Positions 8,714 through 21,209 of a stretch of DNA of 36,671 nucleotides are shown here, in pieces. A program made the position numbers and the translations under genes. Origin of the DNA: Acidobacteriota bacterium (GTDB lineage: Bacteria > Acidobacteriota > Terriglobia > Acidiferrales > UBA7541); NCBI GenBank assembly GCA_003140295.1, contig PLJR01000350.1, positions 10,245 to 46,915 of the forward strand. The letters are read 5' to 3'. Within the stretch, counting starts at the first letter, position 1; each line of letters opens with the position of its first letter. Below the pieces are notes generated by a model. It was not told where the DNA came from and ran no database searches. It saw nothing but the letters and a program-made list of their open reading frames with translations.

Positions 8714-9505
8714 GTGACAAACTTTTTACAAAACCTCGACAGTGTGGGGACACTTCGCGACGGCGTTGGATGTAGCCTCACTCTAAAAGCTCAACAAATA
8801 GCGCGCGATTGTTGTGCTGAGACAAGCCAAGACTCAGGTGTTTCCCGTTGCATCACAGCGCGTGAAGGCGCAGTTTACAAGGGTTGCACAAGTGGCGATG
8901 TGGGGGGACAGCATTTTTTCTACGTCGCTAATTTTCGTTCTGGCCATGTCGAGGTCTACGACACCAATTTCAACCGGGCGCGTTTTTCTGAGGAACGATT
9001 CGATGATGACCAAATCCCGCCGGGCTTTGCTCCTTTCAACGTGCAGAATATAGGCGGCAGCATCTTTGTGACTTATGCCAAGCAAGACGCTGCCAAGCAC
9101 GACGACGTAGCGGGCGAAGGCCTCGGTTTCGTCGATATCTACAGCCCTTCGGGCAAGTTGGAGGCACGTCTCCAGCACGGTCCCTGGCTGAACGCACCGT
9201 GGGGAGTTGTGTGGGCTCCTCGCGATTTCGGCGAGTTCAGCAATCGGGTACTCGTCGGCAATTTCGGCAGTGGATGGATCGCCGCGTACAACGGTTTCGA
9301 TGGTAAGTTTATTGGTTTTATGAAGAACGCGGACGATTCGCGAACATTCATAGACGGCTTGTGGTCCCTGACGTTCGGCAATGGCTCAGGCGCTGGTCCG
9401 TACAATTCTCTATTTTTCACCGCTGGTCCCAACGCCGAGCAGGACGGCCTGTTCGGAACACTGACTCCCGTGCCTGCAGAGTTGGGGGACGGAGACGAAG
9501 AGTAA
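8714..9505 (+). pseudogene. TIGR03118-like protein, N-terminally truncated or degraded
   Basis: From about GAVYKG onward (HFFYVANFRSGHVEVYDTNFNR, GEGLGFVDIYSPSGKLEARLQHGPWLNAPWGVVWAP, DGLFGTLTPV) it resembles the TIGR03118 C-terminal part. The first ~55 residues do not, and no signal peptide or N-terminal part is visible upstream. Confidence 0.55.
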
Positions 9506-9879: not shown

Positions 9880-10590
9880 TTAGGGCTTAGCCTTAAATAC
9901 GAAGTTAACCGGCGCGCTCTCCTCGGTGGACAAAGTTATTTCCTGCGTCTGAGTCCCGAAGGTTTCATGCCATGCCGTGATCGTGTATTTACCGGGGGGC
10001 AAATTGTTCAGCGCAAATGCACCGCTCTCTCCAGTCACCGCATAATGCGAAGTCTTCAGCACTACAAAGTAGCTGTGCATCCACGGATGGATGTTGCATT
10101 TGACAGGGATGAACTCTTCTCTCGCAAACATCTCAGAAAGCGGTGTTGTTCCCGGAGGCTGCGCTTTATTCCACTCGCGATTTGCGGTGGGCAACGGATG
10201 GATGTTGTGCGATGTGGAGTCACTGTTAATCACATTCAGCTGTTGATTCACCTGCATCGCTACGACATGCGGCGCAAAGCGGCAGCCCTTCTGCGTAATA
10301 GAAACAGGGACGTCGGGAGGCGTGCTCTCCGGGGGAGCGCCGGCGGAGACATACACTACGACGTTCTCGAGCGCGCCCCCCGGTCCAACCACTACATCTT
10401 CCGTAGTTGGGGGCGTGGAATACATCTTGGCGCAACCGGGCTCTGCGGACATGTTGATCGATTTTGGGCGAGGAGGCGCACCTTCCACAGTGACTTTACC
10501 GCTAACGCCGCCGTTAGTATGAGCACTGGAGATGGTGGTACAGCTGAACACGATCAGAGGTATCGAAATAAGGATACGGCGAATTCGCAT
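9880..10590 (-). CDS. Secreted cupredoxin-like protein with C-terminal carboxypeptidase-regulatory-like beta-sandwich
   Basis: Signal peptide MRIRRILISIPLIVFSCTTISSA; type-1 Cu-like ligand pattern SHNIHPL...VKCNIHPWMHSYFVVL (His, then CxxHxxM); GAFALNNLPPGKYTITAWHETFG. Confidence 0.8.
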   Translation of the reverse strand: MRIRRILISIPLIVFSCTTISSAHTNGGVSGKVTVEGAPPRPKSINMSAEPGCAKMYSTPPTTEDVVVGPGGALENVVVYVSAGAPPESTPPDVPVSITQKGCRFAPHVVAMQVNQQLNVINSDSTSHNIHPLPTANREWNKAQPPGTTPLSEMFAREEFIPVKCNIHPWMHSYFVVLKTSHYAVTGESGAFALNNLPPGKYTITAWHETFGTQTQEITLSTEESAPVNFVFKAKP

Positions 10591-10626: not shown

Positions 10627-11508
10627 TTACTGCCCGCCACTGAAGCCAGCCGCCGGCCCGATCGGCTGGAGTTGGCCCGGGTGCGAAGAAATCCACGCCT
10701 TCCAGGTGGCAGCCTCTTCTGTTTTCAGAGGCTGCAGAGTTCGCAGGAAATGAACCAGATCCCAAGCGTCAGCAGGCTTGATAGAGTCGGCAAAAGAGGG
10801 CATGGGGGTGCCATCCAGCCCCGTCATAAAGATCCGGTAAAGATCCTGGTTCGTGACGCCGCACTTGAACCGCGAGCCGGTCGAAAAGTCATATGGGCGA
10901 ATGGGGTTGTTCTTTGAGTCGGTAAGTGTCGGGGCGGAGGGCCCGTCTCAGTGACCTTCTGCACCGTGGCATTTCCAGCATTCAACTTTCTGGTAGAGCT
11001 CTCGGCCGTGCAAAATCCCTTCAATCGTGACAGAAGGTTCTGGAGGAATCACGATTGGCTCGACTGGCATGTCGGTCTTCCAACGGGCCGAATAGGTCTT
11101 AATGTAAGCCACCAGGTCTGCGCGGTTGTGGTTCGTCAGTGGTTTCCAAGCCGGCATGTTTGTGGTGATAAAGCCGCGTGTTACGGAGTTGAAAAGATCG
11201 TCGTCGGTCGGTAACGTGCCCGTCGGCGTCGAACGGCATTTGAAAACAGCCGCTGTAAAGTCGCGGGGTTTTGGTTCGATCCAGGTTGCGTTTTCTCCGT
11301 TGCCGTCGCCCTGTGGGCCGTGACAGCCGATGCAATATCGACGATAAAGCTGTTTGCCCGCATCGGGACGAAGTTGCCCTCCGCCATTGGCATGGCCGGT
11401 AACATTTCCGATGTGGCTTTCCTGCGCGAATGCACTGATTCCGCCTGTTGCTAAAAGCACAACGATCATCGCGACGACCAGTGCTACCGCTGTTTTATCG
11501 TGTTTCAT
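10627..11508 (-). pseudogene. Dihaem c-type cytochrome interrupted by an in-frame TGA (codon at 10948-10950)
   Basis: Signal peptide, CIGCHG and CWKCHG motifs. 10627-11508 is a single frame (882 bp) broken only by TGA: CWKCHGAEGH-*-DGPSAPTLTDSKNNPIRPYDFSTGSRFKCGVTNQDLYRIFMTGLDGTPMPSFADSI. Confidence 0.8.
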
Positions 11509-11525: not shown

Positions 11526-13001
11526 TCAGAATGCAAAATCAAAACCGAAGAACAGGCTGTTGCTCCAAACTGCGCGAGCGGGAAGGAGCGGGGTCAGACC
11601 AACTCCATCCCCACTGAGCGGAGCGTTCCCTATGGTTTTGGTAATAGCGTATTCGTTGTGCCACGCGAGTCCCGCGCGACTAAACATAATCGGGTACCAA
11701 CGGTACCCCACTGAATATGCGGTGATATCACCCTGGTTAGCAGGAGCAGTCACGAGCGCCTGTTGCGCCATCCGGATGATCTCGTAGCGCTGGGTAACGA
11801 CGAATTGCGGGTGCACGAAGTAATGCGTTTCGATGAACCCGCCGTTCCAGGCGGGAGCGCTCGCGCCGACCGGAAGCAATTGGTTCGCTGGCGTCGAGGT
11901 TCCCAGAAACGCATTGTCGTGGCCATGCACAAAGAAAGGCAGGAATTCGAATTTGCCCAAGGATAAGTTGCCAGCGAAGCCCACCCGATAAAATGGTTTG
12001 TTGCCGGCGCCCGTCCCGGGGACCGCGGTTGTTCCGCCGGTCGGCGCTCCCGGGATCGCGCTCGAAGTCTGCGAGAATGTCGGCCTCTCACCAATGTAGG
12101 CATACACACCAAATCGTTCGAGTCCCAGCCGTCCTGCCTCGAATGCCTGGCTGAACGTAAGATAGGTGTCATAACCTCGGTTCGCGGGCAGCCCGACATT
12201 TCCGTCATTGCTGCTCAGCAAAGCCGCCCCGTAACGCGTGTAGCTATTTGCGGAATGGCCTGAGAGTTCCAGCCCTAACTGGTTGTCACCGAGCCCGAAA
12301 TTGTTTGAATCGCCCACCGGGGTGAAGTGATAGGTCTGGTAGAGCCCGCCGTTAGCCGAAAGAAACAAGAAACGCTTTTCGGAGATCACGTTATCGAGCT
12401 CGAATTTTCCGAACTTGACGTTGAGCCAGCGGCTTTTCACAAGGTTATCCAGCCGAACGAAGGCGTTCTCGAAATGGAAGTTCCCACTACTATCGGCAGA
12501 TGGGAGAACGGAAAAAGAGATGTTCTTATAGAGCGTTCCGGCGGCCCAAATGTCGATGCCCGAGAGATCAAAGCCATGGGCCTTCACGGTTCCATCTATG
12601 AGTCCGCTGGTTGGATCTCCCGAAACAGCGTCAATCGGTTGGTGGTTTGTCCTCTCGAGATGCCAATTCGGAGTGATCCGAAACGTGATCGGGAAATACG
12701 AGGGATGCTGATAGATAGGGCTGTCGCGATCATTCCCCAACTGGTATCCATCATCCCGAAAGGTTTGGCCAAAGTTGTTCAGTTCCGGCCACGCGGTGTG
12801 ACAGGCCGAACACGGCAAACCATATTTGCGAGCAAACGCGGGAATGGCTCGCACTTCGTGCAAGGGCAAGGTGTGGGCCGATTCGCTTTTGCAGAAGCAC
12901 AACAGCACAACTACACAGGCGCAGGCGAGAATCGACCTCAACAAGAACGGCTTAGAATTGCCACCGATACGCTGGCGGCATTCTAAGAAACAGTTGACCA
13001 T
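11526..13001 (-). CDS. Outer-membrane beta-barrel-like protein with N-terminal single c-haem motif
   Basis: IPAFARKYGLPCSACHTAWPELNNFGQTFRDDGYQLGND, followed by alternating barrel-like segments ending ...VWSNSLFFGFDFAF (terminal Phe). Likely start 13001; the ORF track extends to 13067. Confidence 0.75.
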   Translation of the reverse strand: MVNCFLECRQRIGGNSKPFLLRSILACACVVVLLCFCKSESAHTLPLHEVRAIPAFARKYGLPCSACHTAWPELNNFGQTFRDDGYQLGNDRDSPIYQHPSYFPITFRITPNWHLERTNHQPIDAVSGDPTSGLIDGTVKAHGFDLSGIDIWAAGTLYKNISFSVLPSADSSGNFHFENAFVRLDNLVKSRWLNVKFGKFELDNVISEKRFLFLSANGGLYQTYHFTPVGDSNNFGLGDNQLGLELSGHSANSYTRYGAALLSSNDGNVGLPANRGYDTYLTFSQAFEAGRLGLERFGVYAYIGERPTFSQTSSAIPGAPTGGTTAVPGTGAGNKPFYRVGFAGNLSLGKFEFLPFFVHGHDNAFLGTSTPANQLLPVGASAPAWNGGFIETHYFVHPQFVVTQRYEIIRMAQQALVTAPANQGDITAYSVGYRWYPIMFSRAGLAWHNEYAITKTIGNAPLSGDGVGLTPLLPARAVWSNSLFFGFDFAF

Positions 13002-13112
13002 ACGGCCTCCTCTCGCAGCGTGCGCGCGACGGCTCCGCGGATTCCAAATGCCAGCGCTGAAAATCATTTCGTTGTGAGATTAAGAATATTCTGCTCGGAA
13101 AGTGCCACAGAG

Positions 13113-13140
13113 TTGTCTGAGGCTTGTCAAAAGATTGTCA
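13113..13140. promoter_or_regulatory. Candidate response-regulator operator: three TTGTC(A/T) direct repeats with 11-bp period
   Basis: TTGTC at 13113, 13124 and 13135 (TTGTCTGAGGC TTGTCAAAAGA TTGTCA), upstream of the minus-strand haem-barrel/cytochrome/cupredoxin genes. Confidence 0.5.
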
Positions 13141-13388
13141 ACTCGTTTCATTAGTGCTGCAGTAGAAGATTCGCTTCAGATGGACAGAACGGAGAAAACC
13201 AGGTTAGTAGATTCTTAAATCAGGGGAGAATGGCGCCGGTCGCAATGTCCGATACGATAGGCAAGCCCTGGCAGCTTCCTAATTCACTTCGAAGAACAGA
13301 ATGAGGGCAACCCATTTCAGCTCATCGGCCGCACTGGTGGCGCCGTTCAGTTCCGATTACGGCGCCTTTGTGAGGAAGCGTCCGAGTC

Positions 13389-15194
13389 CTACATCACCAC
13401 AGGTTGCGCAACTTCACTCGGCGCAGGCTGCGATCTCGGCATCCTGATGAAGAATACGGTGCCCAGTTCGGAAGTGCGTTCGACCGTGATCGACCCATCA
13501 TGATCGTGAATGATCTTGCTGGCAATCGCGAGGCCTAACCCAGTGCCATTGGACTTGCCGCAGCTGACGAAGGGATCGAACAACGTGCCGCGAATTGAAG
13601 CCGGAATACCCGGACCGTTATCCGCGACGCGCACCTCGAACGAATCCGGGCTCGAAGAGATCTCGACCGTGATCTGACCTTGGCGATCGGCGGTAGCTTC
13701 TGAGGCGTTGAGCACGAGATTGAAAAAGGCGCGCTCCATTTTTCCAGGATCGAACACTCCATTCATGTCACCTTCGGTATGGATGGAGATGGCGCGTTGG
13801 CGCAATTCCGGTCGCGCCAGTACGGCCTCGGTGGCGCGATGGACGATGCGGTCCATGCTGGCCGGAACAGGCGTGATAGTGCGCTGTTCGCGCGCTAGTT
13901 CGCGGAGCGAGTCCAGGAGCTCGGTCATTTGCTCCGAGGCGGTCTTAATTTCGCTGTAGATTTCATTCTTGTCGAGCTTCAACTTTTCCGCTTCGTAGAG
14001 GAATTCGGCATTCGCCACGACGGTGGCCAGGTAATGGCGCAGATCGTGGGAGATGGAACTGGCCGCCCTCCCCAAAGCGGCGACGCGCTCGGTCTCGATT
14101 CTCTGCCGTTGGGAGACCAGCAGCTCGCCGCGCATCCTCGAAAACGCTTCGCCAAGTTCAGCAACTTCGCTGCTGCCTCGAGGCGTGATGGAGTAAGCGT
14201 AATCGCCGGCGGCCAGCGCGCGAACGCCGGCGACCAGGTTATCCACTGGGCGCGTGATGGTGTGGGAAACTGAGCTCAGCAGGAGCCAGGCAAACAGCAC
14301 GGCTGAGATTCCAAGAACCAGTATCGTGCGGTTGAGCTCATGAATGAAACTCATGGGACGCCGCAAGGATACGAGCACGTAACATTGCATCGGCGATGGC
14401 GGCCCGTCATGAAGCGCCACCGATGCCATCTGATATTCGGCGCCACTCAAAACCACTTCCTGAGGCGCTGAACTCGCGTCGAGGCGATGCAGGCGAATTA
14501 GCCGCTGCAGTTCGACTTCCTCCTGAGGAGAGAGACTCGAAGCGATTACTTTGTCGCCCGCGGCTAGCACAATCTTGCTGTCGGAAACGCGGGCAAGATC
14601 TTTGGCCACCGTGGAATCGACTTCGTAGCCGATGGCGACCAGTCCCAGCTGCTTGGCGTTGCTTCCCGCTCCGGCCGTGATGGTGCGAAAAAACACCCAG
14701 TAAAGCCGCTCAGCCGCGTACCAATAGGCGGCGTTATCGCCTTCTTTTACGGATCTGGCCAGATCGCCCTCGGCCATAGTGGAATCGAGTCCAGGCCGGG
14801 TAACGTGCAGGCCCTGAACATGGCCAGCAGGGTCCGCCAGCAGAAAAAGATCACTGCCCGCAACCTGCCAGAAAGGAAAAGAGCCATCCTGAATCGTCGG
14901 GGCGTGCTGGGTAGTCATCAACGCCTTCAGGGTAGGAAGTTGCGAAAGCATAGCGGCAGTGCGCGATAGTTCCAGCTCCCGTTCCTGCTGCACGGCTTGA
15001 AATGCGTCTACTGATGCCACGGTGCCTTCCCGCACTTGCTCGTCGATTTCCGAGCGCACGGTGTGCCGAACGATCAGAAGAATCGCGCCGGTAAGGGCAC
15101 AGATGATCAGCAAGGTAGAGATCAGAAGTTGGGTCTTTAAGCCGCAGCTGGCCCATAAAGGCTTGTCAAGGCTCCGTGAAATCTCACTTTCCAT
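13389..15194 (-). CDS. Membrane sensor histidine kinase (extracytoplasmic sensor, HAMP, HisKA, HATPase)
   Basis: N-terminal TM, extracytoplasmic region, second TM, HAMP-like ITRPVDNLVAGVRALAAGDY; SISHDLRHYLATVVANAEFL; NGTGLGLAIASKII. Start MESEISRSLDKP at 15194. Confidence 0.9.
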   Translation of the reverse strand: MESEISRSLDKPLWASCGLKTQLLISTLLIICALTGAILLIVRHTVRSEIDEQVREGTVASVDAFQAVQQERELELSRTAAMLSQLPTLKALMTTQHAPTIQDGSFPFWQVAGSDLFLLADPAGHVQGLHVTRPGLDSTMAEGDLARSVKEGDNAAYWYAAERLYWVFFRTITAGAGSNAKQLGLVAIGYEVDSTVAKDLARVSDSKIVLAAGDKVIASSLSPQEEVELQRLIRLHRLDASSAPQEVVLSGAEYQMASVALHDGPPSPMQCYVLVSLRRPMSFIHELNRTILVLGISAVLFAWLLLSSVSHTITRPVDNLVAGVRALAAGDYAYSITPRGSSEVAELGEAFSRMRGELLVSQRQRIETERVAALGRAASSISHDLRHYLATVVANAEFLYEAEKLKLDKNEIYSEIKTASEQMTELLDSLRELAREQRTITPVPASMDRIVHRATEAVLARPELRQRAISIHTEGDMNGVFDPGKMERAFFNLVLNASEATADRQGQITVEISSSPDSFEVRVADNGPGIPASIRGTLFDPFVSCGKSNGTGLGLAIASKIIHDHDGSITVERTSELGTVFFIRMPRSQPAPSEVAQPVVM

Positions 15195-15199
15195 GACGG

Positions 15200-15949
<750 letters not shown>

Positions 15950-16173: not shown

Positions 16174-16250
16174 TACCCGTGTGTCCCCGCGAGATAAACT
16201 CGAAATCTCTGGGGCTCACAAATGAGCTTAGCTTGGCGCGCCGGGGCATT

Positions 16251-16277
16251 TGTCACAAAAACGTCAACAATGAGTCA
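16251..16277. promoter_or_regulatory. Candidate response-regulator operator: three NGTCA direct repeats with 11-bp period
   Basis: TGTCA at 16251, CGTCA at 16262 and AGTCA at 16273, in the intergenic region upstream of the OmpR-type regulator. Confidence 0.35.
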
Positions 16278-16409: not shown

Positions 16410-17177
16410 TTAATAAGCGGTGGTCGCTGGAGGAACATAATCCTGCCCGTACTTGTTCTCGTGGGTAAGTTTGAAGTCGCGATTATCGGTCACCTGAATC
16501 GTTCCCAGAGAGCGCGCCGTCGGAGAAATAACCACTGGGTGATCCAGAACCTTCAGCTGCTCGACCGGGCTCCGTTCGTACCAAACGTGCATCTGGTATC
16601 GCCCATCGGGAACGTTGGAAATGAGCACACGACCCTTATTGTCGGAAAGCGCAAAGTAGGGAGTATCCACTGCTACGACCACCGCGCTCATCTCCGGGTG
16701 AATATTACAAAATAGAAAGCTGACCCCGGGTCTGCTAAAGCGCACTGAGCGCGTGGTCCCTGCTTCATAAAGGCCGAGGTCGAAACGTTTGCCATCATAA
16801 AGCGAAAAGACGTTGTGAAAGAATGGATCTTTATTGGGGAACTGGATCAAGGTGCCCACTTCGATCATCAGCACGTGCGGCTGAAAGGTCTTGTTTCGCT
16901 GGATGAGCTGCGGCGCTGGCCCGGATGGCGCAGTCCCGGCGCTTCGGGGCGTTCCGTTTTCAGAGAGAGGGGTGAGCCACACCGCCACATTGGACGCATC
17001 GGTGGTAGCGCCCGTAGATCCTCGCGAGGCCGGCTTCTCCTCATTTGTTGCGACCAGTTCTACCTTCGCTGTAACCGGCGTCAACTGCGCCTCACCCGTT
17101 GCCCCGCTTGCGAATACACACAGCATCAAGACGCGATAACACGCAACCCGAAATCGCCTAGCGACGTGCGCCATCAT
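16410..17177 (-). CDS. Secreted cupredoxin-like protein (second copy in window)
   Basis: FPNKDPFFHNVFSLYDGKRFDLGLYEAGTTRSVRFSRPGVSFLFCNIHPEMSAVVVAVDTPYF (His and CxxHxxM), then GRVLISNVPDGRYQMHVWYE beta-sandwich. Confidence 0.8.
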   Translation of the reverse strand: MMAHVARRFRVACYRVLMLCVFASGATGEAQLTPVTAKVELVATNEEKPASRGSTGATTDASNVAVWLTPLSENGTPRSAGTAPSGPAPQLIQRNKTFQPHVLMIEVGTLIQFPNKDPFFHNVFSLYDGKRFDLGLYEAGTTRSVRFSRPGVSFLFCNIHPEMSAVVVAVDTPYFALSDNKGRVLISNVPDGRYQMHVWYERSPVEQLKVLDHPVVISPTARSLGTIQVTDNRDFKLTHENKYGQDYVPPATTAY

Positions 17178-18877
17178 TAAAACGTGTACCCCACACTCAA
17201 GTTTACATGGTTTGCGGCGGTCGACCCCGTATTGAGCACAAAGGTTTGCAAACGGCGGAATTCAATGGCAATCACAATGTCGGACCGCATCTGATAGATC
17301 ACGTTCACAAACGGGCTCAGATTCTTGGACAACCATACACCATAAAATGACCCTGTCGGGCTAAAACGCCGCAGGTCACTCGCAAACGGATTATCGTCTC
17401 CGAACGCGCCATTGAGTTCCAGCTTGGGCCGGGGTTTAAATTTCAGTTGCATCCATCCGCCCATCGAATTGAGCCCCAAAACGATTGTGGTCGGATCGGT
17501 GAGGCGCCCGGACATCACTACGTCCTGCCCGACGGCCCCGCTAAGACCACCCAGGGCGCGGCCACGGTAGAATGCTCCGGTTAGTGCAAACCACTTTCCA
17601 AGCGGTACCGCCGCGTCCATAGTAGCAACCCAGCTGTCCACGTTGCGCTGTAATCCCCAGTCCTGCCGTCCATAGTAGCCACCGAATCCTACCGTCAAGT
17701 TTTGATCGGATACGTGCCGGGTCCAGGCCACGCGTGCCGCATAGGCCGGCTGGCCCGATGACTCGCCCCACGTGGGTTGCCGGTCCGGTGTTGGGCTGGG
17801 GACATCCCCGGACAACGAGTCGAGGATTCCCGCTTGAAACAGAAGATTCGAGTTCTCGGACAGATTGTGCCGGTGCTCGACGCGAACTTGAGGGGTCCAA
17901 TTCCATAAATTCCCTGCGTAGGAAAGGGCCGGAATCGCCAGCGTCGCCAGCGACGTAGGCGCAAGAGGCGCAAAGAACAGCCGATCCTGGCCGGCGACCA
18001 CCGACGTAGTTTTCCAGTCAAAGCGAATCACGCCCGTACGCAAACGCACCAGGCCCTGAGAAACTCCGTTTTCAGTACTCGGAAATCCGCCGGCGAAATC
18101 AAATTTCACGTTTGCGCTGGTGTGCGCCCCGGCAATGTCCGGACCAAACACATCCAACCCGATTTGCGACTGGCGCAGCGTTCCGCCGAAAGCACTGCGC
18201 GAATGGAGGAGTTCGAGAGGCGTGGATATCTCGGGGAAATCCTGATTATCCACCGCGCCATGATTGTCGTATAGGTTCAGCAGCACCATGCCGGAAAGCC
18301 GCAGCCGGTATTTCGATCCGCTCTCGACCTTCGTTTGGTATTGATCGGTGACCTTGGCGTCAATAAACTGCTGCTCCTCCTCAATTTTGTCGAGCCGGTC
18401 GCTGATTGCCTGCGGCCCTGCATTCGGCGTCGGCGCGGACAAATTCTGCGGCCCTGATGACGTCTGCTGAGAAGATGCCCCGGCCGCACCGGAGTCATTC
18501 GTCGGCCCGGGGTACCCCGACCCAGTGCCCGAAGTAGTGCCCTGCGGCGCTATCCGACTCAGTTCGAGGCTTAGATTCTCGCGCCGAACGCGTTCTGGCC
18601 CGGGATCGGTGGCTTGTGCGCGGGCCCGCTGCTGTTCTTCCCGCAATTCACTCACCTGCAAATTCAACGCTTCCACTTGCGCCTGAAGTGCCCGCACGGA
18701 TTCAACCAGCCCCCGCACCTCAGCGGTCTCGTCGAGCGCTGTCGCTGCGGGCGGCGTCACGTCAATCGCACCAGTTCGGGAAATACTCTGGCCTGAGACG
18801 CATCCTGACCATAGCAACAATGAACCGGCGCTCATGATGAAGGCGAGAACCAGCTTGCGGTAAACTTTGGGTCGCAT
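17177..18877 (-). CDS. Outer-membrane beta-barrel-like protein with N-terminal coiled coil
   Basis: Start MRPKVYRKLVLAFIMSAGSLLLWSGC; coiled coil TAEVRGLVESVRALQAQVEALNLQVSELREEQQRARAQ; porin-like segments ending VNLSVGYTF. Start/stop overlap (TAATG) with the downstream cupredoxin gene. Confidence 0.7.
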   Translation of the reverse strand: MRPKVYRKLVLAFIMSAGSLLLWSGCVSGQSISRTGAIDVTPPAATALDETAEVRGLVESVRALQAQVEALNLQVSELREEQQRARAQATDPGPERVRRENLSLELSRIAPQGTTSGTGSGYPGPTNDSGAAGASSQQTSSGPQNLSAPTPNAGPQAISDRLDKIEEEQQFIDAKVTDQYQTKVESGSKYRLRLSGMVLLNLYDNHGAVDNQDFPEISTPLELLHSRSAFGGTLRQSQIGLDVFGPDIAGAHTSANVKFDFAGGFPSTENGVSQGLVRLRTGVIRFDWKTTSVVAGQDRLFFAPLAPTSLATLAIPALSYAGNLWNWTPQVRVEHRHNLSENSNLLFQAGILDSLSGDVPSPTPDRQPTWGESSGQPAYAARVAWTRHVSDQNLTVGFGGYYGRQDWGLQRNVDSWVATMDAAVPLGKWFALTGAFYRGRALGGLSGAVGQDVVMSGRLTDPTTIVLGLNSMGGWMQLKFKPRPKLELNGAFGDDNPFASDLRRFSPTGSFYGVWLSKNLSPFVNVIYQMRSDIVIAIEFRRLQTFVLNTGSTAANHVNLSVGYTF

Positions 18878-18960
18878 TGTTCCCTCCACGCTGCCCACAT
18901 GCTAGCGCAGATAGGCGGACAGCAGGTATATGCGGACAGATGTCTCAGGGAGTAGGACTT

Positions 18961-21209
18961 CTAGATGGTGCAACGCTCGCTGGCCGCGCTCTTCAATGTT
19001 GCGGGGTCCCCGACCAAAACTTCTCGCACCTTTCCCAGCAGCGAATTCTTGGAAAACGGCTTTTCGATCATCAGCGCTTCCATACCGGCGGAAGGTGGGC
19101 GGGCCGAGTATTCGGAATATCCGGACATGAGTACGCCCTTGGTGCCGGGGCGGACCGACTTCAGGCGCTCGAGCAGGACTGCGCCCCCCATCCTCGGCAT
19201 GACCACGTCACTCAGTGCCAAGTGAATAGCGCCCGTGTGCCGGGCTGCTACCGCAAGTGCTTCCACTCCATCTTTGGCCTCGAGCACCGTGTATCCAGCG
19301 GCGCGTAGAAACATGCACGCGAGAGCTCGCACACCATCTTCGTCCTCGACCACCAGAATGGTCTCGCTGCCGCGAGCGCCTGCCGATGGCTTCGCTTCGG
19401 GCTCTGCCGTAATGGCGGCGTCACTGACTTGCGGCAAGTAAATTTCGAACGCCGTACCGATCCCGGAACGCTTTCCACCCAGATAAATCCCCCGCTTTGC
19501 TTAATCACGCCATAAACGGTCGCTAAGCCAAGACCAGTCCCCTTGCCAACTTCCTTCGTAGTGAAAAATGGTTCGAAAATGCGGGTCAGCGTCTCCTTAC
19601 TCATTCCATGACCCGAGTCTCTGACCGTAAGGAGTACGTAACTTCCCGGCGGCATGGGGGGACGCTCGCGTACGTCGTCATCGGACATTACGACGTTTTG
19701 CGTTCTCACTGTGAGGGTACCGCCATCGAACATCGCGTCGCGCGCGTTCACAGCCAGATTCATCACTACCTGTTCGATTTGTCCGGGATCGGCCTTGAGC
19801 AGGGCCACTTTCGGGCCGGGCACAAACGTATATTCGATGTGCTCCCCGATCAGCAGAGGCAGCATCTTGCCCATTTCCATGACCACTGCGTTCAAGTCCA
19901 GAACTCGGGGCTGCAATACTTGCATTCGGCTGAAGGCCAGCAATTGGCGCGTCATGGAAATCGCCCGGCCTGCGGCCTTGTGGATCTGGTCGACACTGTG
20001 ACGCAGCGGGCCGTCCACGTCGTTTCGATCGAGCAGCAAATCGCCGTGGCCTCGAATGATCGTCAACAAATTATTGAAGTCGTGCGCTACGCCACCCGCA
20101 AGGCGCCCCACCGCTTCCATCTTGTGCGCTCGACGAAGCCGCTCCTCCAGCAACCTTTGCTCCTCCTGCGTTTTCTGCAGGGTGATGCGCATACGATCGA
20201 ACGCTCCCGTGACTTCGGCCACCTCGTCTCCACCGGTTTTTTCGAGCGGATATGAGAAGTCGCCTCCTTCAAGCGCCCGAACGCCCGCCACCAGAGTCGC
20301 CAGCGGCCGCGTAAATGTGTCGGAGATTAGAAATGCGACTACACCTCCGGCCAGCAAGCAGAGCAGTCCGAGCGCCATCAAGAGATGATCCAGTCCGTTC
20401 AGAAACGACGTCGCCTGATCAAACGATTTCAAGACGCTCAATGACACGGGCGAGCTGCCGGCCGACGACAAACTCACCGTTTTCACCAGATAATCCTCGC
20501 TGCCAATCTGGATCTCTTTCGCGTCCGCTCCCGGCGCCGGGTTACTCCCGATTTGCCGCAGCAGTTCGGTTTTTTGTGTTTCATCCAATGTGCTGGCCAC
20601 GACAGTATTGCCGCACTCAAACGCCACTTCGCTCGAAGCGATGCTGCCGAAATCCTTGGCGGCCTGCACGTCGATTTCGTGTCCCACAGCCAGCAGGCCC
20701 GTCATTTTGTTTTCCGATGCCGCTCCGAAGTAAATGGGCTGTATCCACACTTCGTACAAATGCCCGCCGCCAAACCACCAGTCCCTCGATTGCGCTCGAC
20801 CGAGCGATCGTTGCAGCAGTTCCTCCGCCATCCCCGACGACAAGCCGGCGGTGCTGGTTCGCAGCGCCAGTACCTTTCCCGTGCGACCAGCCAACACCAG
20901 TAAGTTGCTTGCGCTCAAGCGCCAGATATCCGCCGAGGCGTCCTGAATGGTCGCCGCGTCGCGGGTGCTCATGAGCGCTCGGACGGTGGGCAGATTAGCA
21001 AGCAGTTCCGCGGATCGTGACAGCGAGTCTTCCAGCTGACGCTCGAAAGTCTGGTAGGTGTCGACGGAATTGCGCAAGTCTCCGCGAATCGATTCTCGAA
21101 CGCGCTTTTCAACGCTGTAACGCACGACGAGAAGCGTTCCAGTGGTCAATCCGGCGGAAATCACCAGAAGCGCAAAAAGAAATTTTGTACGCAGTCGGAT
21201 ATTTCGCAT
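18961..21209 (-). pseudogene. Hybrid sensor histidine kinase (sensor-HAMP-HisKA-HATPase-receiver) split by a -1 frameshift near 19461-19466
   Basis: Kinase part GGVAHDFNNLLTIIRGHGDLLL...[29 protein letters not shown] leaves frame. Adding one base restores GIGTAFEIYLPQVSDAAITAEPEAKPS..ETILVVEDEDGVRALA..DVVMPRMGG..MIEKPFSKNSLLGKVREVL in the next ORF. Confidence 0.8.

Follow-up and report, generated by a model that had tools for sequence, protein, structure and literature searches.

Tandem TGACA half-sites of 11-bp period as a candidate operator joining an OmpR/PhoB-family two-component pair to a Cyc2-like operon in Acidobacteriota

In a 36,671-nucleotide stretch of an Acidobacteriota genome (hereafter the window), a short direct repeat lies between the genes of a two-component system and an operon for a predicted barrel protein, a cytochrome and a cupredoxin-like protein, which raises the question of whether it is the operator by which the first controls the second. 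The original prediction was that it is, on the strength of three TTGTC repeats of 11-bp period, and we recovered these at the same positions of the plus strand (13113, 13124 and 13135; period exactly 11 bp). Because the surrounding genes run on the minus strand, the functional reading of the array, termed operator A (13103–13140, minus strand), was taken from that strand; the 11-bp repeats stood, and the half-site became TGACA, with a fourth copy added. The half-sites are TGACA (13136–13140), TGACA (13125–13129), AGACA (13114–13118) and TGGCA (13103–13107), the last being imperfect (TGCCA on the plus strand). Thus, operator A reads TGACAATCTTT-TGACAAGCCTC-AGACAACTCTG-TGGCACTTTCC, three good half-sites and one imperfect half-site, all at 11 bp and in line with the family consensus. 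The exact triplet TTGTC-N6-TTGTC-N6-TTGTC occurred once in the 4.1 Mb genome, at operator A; this and other genome-wide counts for the genome rest on pattern searches in a fragmented assembly that is 73% complete. The search pattern proposed with the original prediction gave, with two mismatches, a second match on the minus strand (8716–8742), which is operator C (see below) read in reverse. In dinucleotide shuffles, 3 of 3000 versions of the intergenic region (13068–13388) and 10 of 60 versions of the whole window contained some 5-mer three times at a period of 10 or 11. Judged after the fact, the repeats are therefore only moderately rare, and the reality of operator A rests on comparative evidence.

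The gene downstream of the array encodes a Cyc2-like fused cytochrome-porin (11526–13004, minus strand) with a signal peptide, an AIPAFARKY...CSACH...PEL motif and 16 predicted strands. Its start is most likely ATG 13004, after GAGAGGAGG, rather than 13067, which places the repeats approximately 100–135 bp upstream of the coding sequence. It has been reported that Cyc2 proteins show AXPXFAR[Q/K][T/Y], then one CXXCH and then PXL, in at least 365 aa (PMC8406198); we found AIPAFARKY-GLP-CSACH-TAW-PEL with a single CXXCH in 492 aa. The 16 strands come from an AlphaFold2 model of moderate confidence (pLDDT 61, pTM 0.66), whose closest PDB fold was OprP. The protein is thus probably a Cyc2-like porin-cytochrome, with moderate confidence for a 16-strand outer-membrane barrel, and membership of the family suggests that it may oxidize iron. 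The second gene of the operon encodes a cytochrome c (Pfam Cytochrome_CBB3; 10948–11508, minus strand) and the third a probable cupredoxin-like protein with a carboxypeptidase-regulatory-like domain (9880–10590, minus strand), whose Cupredoxin_1 match was weak (E 0.07).

On the other side of the array, Pfam bore out the adjoining kinase and OmpR-family regulator that had been called at 13389–15949. The sensor histidine kinase (13389–15203, minus strand) has HAMP, HisKA and HATPase_c domains and an extracytoplasmic sensor region with a weak dCache_3 match. The OmpR/PhoB-family response regulator (15200–15949, minus strand) consists of a receiver (Response_reg) and a winged-helix Trans_reg_C domain (E 2e-28 and 2e-26), the latter with the recognition-helix region TRTVDNHILRLRQKLE. 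Two further minus-strand genes at 16410–18898, g16410 (possibly cupredoxin-like) and g17177 (coiled-coil start), are usual neighbours of the pair in relatives. A second histidine kinase, approximately 30–34% related to the first, lies beside g17177 (19248–21209), and a relative of it also adjoins g17177-g16410 in locus L135.

Conservation of the repeats in orthologous barrel intergenic regions had been put forward as a check of the predicted link. Among approximately 40 barrel orthologs (Acidobacteriota, mostly Candidatus Acidiferrales), the barrel-cytochrome-cupredoxin operon was conserved, the repeats were missing from nearly all promoters, and close relatives of the two-component pair were likewise missing from these loci. 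Taken alone, this comparison fails, since conservation of the operator goes with the regulator rather than the barrel; therefore, we set aside the refutation that it seemed to offer and turned to the two-component pair, which the operator tracks.

For this purpose, 21 loci containing orthologs of the kinase were compared (309 kb, window excluded), many of the genomes used being incomplete assemblies; motif scores and thresholds were chosen from the motif of the window and then applied to the relatives. At a score of at least 20, TGACA triplets occurred 34 times at period 11, versus 0, 0, 3, 2, 1, 3, 1, 0 and 0 times at periods 7, 8, 9, 10, 12, 13, 14, 15 and 16, respectively; at a score of at least 22, the counts were 15 at period 11 and 0 at the other periods. 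At least one site was present in 18 of the 21 loci, the remaining three having none at the threshold. Similarly, six more distant loci had 10 triplets at period 11 and 0–2 at other periods. In 298 kb of background from the same clade, there were 6 at period 11. Almost all sites (46 of 51) fell outside long ORFs. Positions that had not been used for selection were also conserved, namely an A after the last TGACA (76% of sites) and an ACAA-like half-site one turn upstream. Recurrent targets in relatives were a gene of the TIGR03118 family, a second propeller-like gene, an ECF sigma factor gene, g17177-g16410 and the regulator gene itself. Sites were oriented toward the nearest gene more often than away from it, and some pointed away from the sole nearby gene, particularly upstream of g17177 in the same genus. 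Together, these sequence comparisons make a convincing case that the putative operator is conserved with the two-component pair and not with the barrel operon.

The sites also showed a fixed geometry with respect to a predicted promoter. A -10-like hexamer formed a sharp peak at offset 47 from half-site 1, or 25 bp counted from where half-site 3 starts; 16 of 49 sites had it there, compared with 0–2 at most other offsets, and a minor -10 peak was seen at +58. Triplets combined with a -10 at the fixed spacing numbered 24 in the loci of the pair and 0 in the 298 kb of background, and periods other than 11 gave 0–2. With the -10 at this spacing, the centre of half-site 3 falls near -35, and those of the other two near -46 and -57. 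Operator A accordingly overlaps the -35 region of the predicted barrel promoter, where two -10 registers are possible: the candidate CAGAAT (13088–13093, minus strand) shows the 25-bp spacing to half-site 3 that is found throughout the family, and the alternative TAATCT (13077–13082, minus strand) shows the same spacing to half-site 4. Matches to the -10 at barrel promoters were weak (CAGAAT, CAGTCT, CACTCT and AACTCT). The best reading of this layout is an activator-type operator overlapping the -35 region (class II). At the level of sequence, the anatomy of the operator, its period, the -10 spacing and its association with the regulator are well established.

How far the barrel promoter shares in this system was assessed from the position of the operon. 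Among the genomes searched, it adjoins the pair in the genome of the window and in G061, G062 and G069, and in all of the latter three the operator is present immediately before the barrel. In each of them a strong copy (scores 21–22) faces a divergent lipoprotein gene with its -10 in register, and the copies facing the barrel (scores 17, 19 and 21) also have a -10 in register, that of G061 (L160) being weak with two good half-sites. Where the pair was present and the barrel located elsewhere (e.g., G002, G003, G022, G088, G092, G098 and G102), the barrel promoter was without the operator, and one marginal site was found in G080. Thus, the predicted link between pair and operon gained strong support, in that triplets cluster at orthologs of the pair, have a fixed -10 and occur at the barrel only beside the pair. 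In a maximum-likelihood tree, the barrel of the window and those of G061, G062 and G069 formed two well-supported separate clades; therefore, the linkage of pair and barrel arose, or was kept, in two lineages. A barrel ortholog of Gemmatimonadota also had an 11-bp TGACA triplet in its promoter (L047, 7808–7834, score 24). We rejected it as support, as TACAAT lies 16 bp from TTGACA, an ordinary sigma-70 spacing; a related two-component pair was not found within the 8 kb seen around this barrel.

The window carries two more such operators. A relaxed-motif search of the genome found three sites on the contig of the window, at 13114, 8715 and 16251. Operator B (16225–16277, minus strand), upstream of the regulator gene, contains TGACT, TGACG and TGACA at 11 bp with the -10 TAAGCT in register (16225–16230). 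In genomes of the same genus, the ECF sigma gene has an operator similar to it. We looked for a remnant of such a gene in the interval from operator B to the regulator gene and found none. Operator C (8715–8778, plus strand) contains TGACA, TTACA, CGACA and GGACA with the -10 TAGCCT in register (8773–8778), upstream of a shortened TIGR03118 gene. This gene (8714–9505, plus strand) matches profile positions 135–335 of 336; it is without the first approximately 134 positions, yet has an intact four-unit operator at its 5' end. It looks like a decaying member of the regulon, and in other genomes full-length TIGR03118 relatives stand behind such operators. A composite pattern (triplet plus -10, up to three mismatches) gave 6 matches in the genome versus 0 for the reversed control. 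Four of the six fell in the window and represent the three operators: two of the three matches with two mismatches were operators A and B, and operator C (composite span 8726–8778) was also among the matches. Other hits in the genome, at C210:8880 and C346:2893, had no convincing context and were discarded. An operator-like site, GTGACAAAGTTTTCACGAATCCTTGACA, was located at C344:3845–3871 (L097, genome G000), approximately 90 bp before a short ORF that encodes a signal peptide; this secreted-protein ORF is a plausible target. In three same-genus loci (L090, 2744–4328; L091; L092), an ECF sigma gene and a gene for a small secreted glycine-rich protein each have their own operator; in this genus the predicted regulon may thus comprise a two-component system controlling a sigma factor.

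We considered the possibility that PhoB binds operator A as a true pho box, which would place the operon in the phosphate regulon. The 11-bp tandem layout is alike and the regulator and PhoB belong to one family, and to this extent the pho-box-type operator of the original prediction was apt as an analogy at the level of the OmpR/PhoB family. In the same genomes, however, pstS promoters carry GTAACA-N5-GTAACA-N5-GTAACA, with identical spacing but another half-site, so that operator A is not a PhoB box. The pst loci contained 21 exact adjacent TAACA pairs at 11 bp and the loci of the pair none; for TGACA pairs the counts were 0 and 10, respectively. The recognition-helix region also differs, being TVDNHILRLRQKLE versus SVDVYVRRLREK(V/I)E, with TRTVDNHILRLRQKLE in the regulator orthologs and PR(S/A)VDVY(V/I/M)RRLREK(V/I)E in PhoB of the clade. 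The regulator scored 188 bits against TIGR02154 (cut-off 296), and better PhoB candidates were present elsewhere in relatives, in several on the pstS contig. Based on these data, a pho box at this position is highly improbable.

The repeats could also be a product of chance, or belong to an ordinary sigma-70 promoter as overlapping TTGACA hexamers of the -35 type, given that TTGACA is the -35 consensus, that about one-sixth of shuffled windows contain a 5-mer triplet at period 10–11, and that the last unit of the Gemmatimonadota triplet has ordinary sigma-70 spacing. The strict 11-bp periodicity over 21 loci and its scarcity in the background make this extremely unlikely, as does the distance of 20 bp between TTGACA and the -10, which is too long for an ordinary -35. 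It is rather unlikely, too, that the regulator represses the operon here or that another OmpR-family regulator of the same cell uses the array. Overlap with the -35 is compatible with steric repression, and the genome has many OmpR-family regulators by first-look counts; however, half-sites on one face upstream of the -10 and a non-optimal -35 spacing are the usual geometry of activators, as for BqsR (PMC4682146), and the sites track specifically the adjacent two-component pair. We consider it very probable that the repeats are an operator of the adjacent OmpR/PhoB-family regulator, most likely activating the Cyc2-like, iron-oxidase-like outer-membrane electron-transfer operon of this uncultured soil Acidobacterium.

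In the mechanism that we propose, the histidine kinase would phosphorylate the regulator, which would then line up head-to-tail on three to four half-sites (TGACA), with a subunit at each 11-bp turn of the helix. As the downstream half-sites overlap the -35 region, the bound regulator would recruit sigma-70 RNA polymerase to the -10 that follows at 25 bp from where half-site 3 starts, and the genes for the Cyc2-like porin-cytochrome, the cytochrome c and the cupredoxin-like protein would then be transcribed. Operator copies before the regulator gene and the TIGR03118 gene would form a small local regulon, with probable autoregulation. We infer binding, its dependence on phosphorylation, activation rather than repression, and the signal from these features; the signal is probably periplasmic because the sensor region of the kinase lies outside the membrane.

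Tandem operators of this kind have been described in other bacteria. The BqsR operator of Pseudomonas aeruginosa, TTAAG-N6-TTAAG in up to five copies, is bound by an activator whose system responds to ferrous iron, and its most downstream TTAAG overlaps the -35 (PMC4682146). Operator A likewise has pentamers with a 6-bp spacer and a downstream unit at the -35, known here from sequence, but differs in half-site (TGACA instead of TTAAG), genes and phylum. PHO boxes of PhoB/PhoP consist of 11-nt direct-repeat units bound head-to-tail (PMC4415409); the repeat length and regulator family are shared, whereas the half-site is not and phosphate genes are absent near operator A. PhoP of Mycobacterium tuberculosis recognizes 7-bp direct repeats with a strict 4-bp spacer, again an 11-bp period, and binds three or four motifs more tightly than two (PMC4832192), but its motif is TCACAGC and its regulon is another. 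With regard to function, RegB/RegA of Acidithiobacillus ferrooxidans controls the cyc2-containing rus operon, where the authors identified no motif and binding was mostly upstream of the -35 (PMC5506826). Two-component control of a Cyc2-containing electron-transfer operon, predicted in our case, is common to both, whereas here the regulator is of the OmpR/PhoB family with a clear tandem site. A literature search found no published description of the present regulator-operator system; although the layout of the operator is of a known kind, neither the switch nor its targets seem to have been described before.

Sequences of Cyc2-type iron oxidases are widespread. Regulation of a Cyc2 operon was found described in Acidithiobacillus, without a definable RegA motif, whereas here sequence alone suffices to name the regulator, a predicted operator, its -10 distance and several targets, and the operator pattern can be used to search uncultured soil Acidobacteria for the regulon. 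It is possible, if on balance doubtful, that an undescribed envelope-signal pair of Acidiferrales with its own TGACA/11-bp code captured the Cyc2-like conduit operon at least twice, with an iron- or metal-linked signal controlling electron uptake. If so, such a signal would directly control extracellular electron uptake in these organisms. PhoB boxes of the same genomes provide an internal control, in which two regulators of one family have a common spacing and different half-sites. The pstS promoters (L164–L177) showed clear PhoB boxes of the clade, which give a usable definition of the Acidiferrales Pho box.
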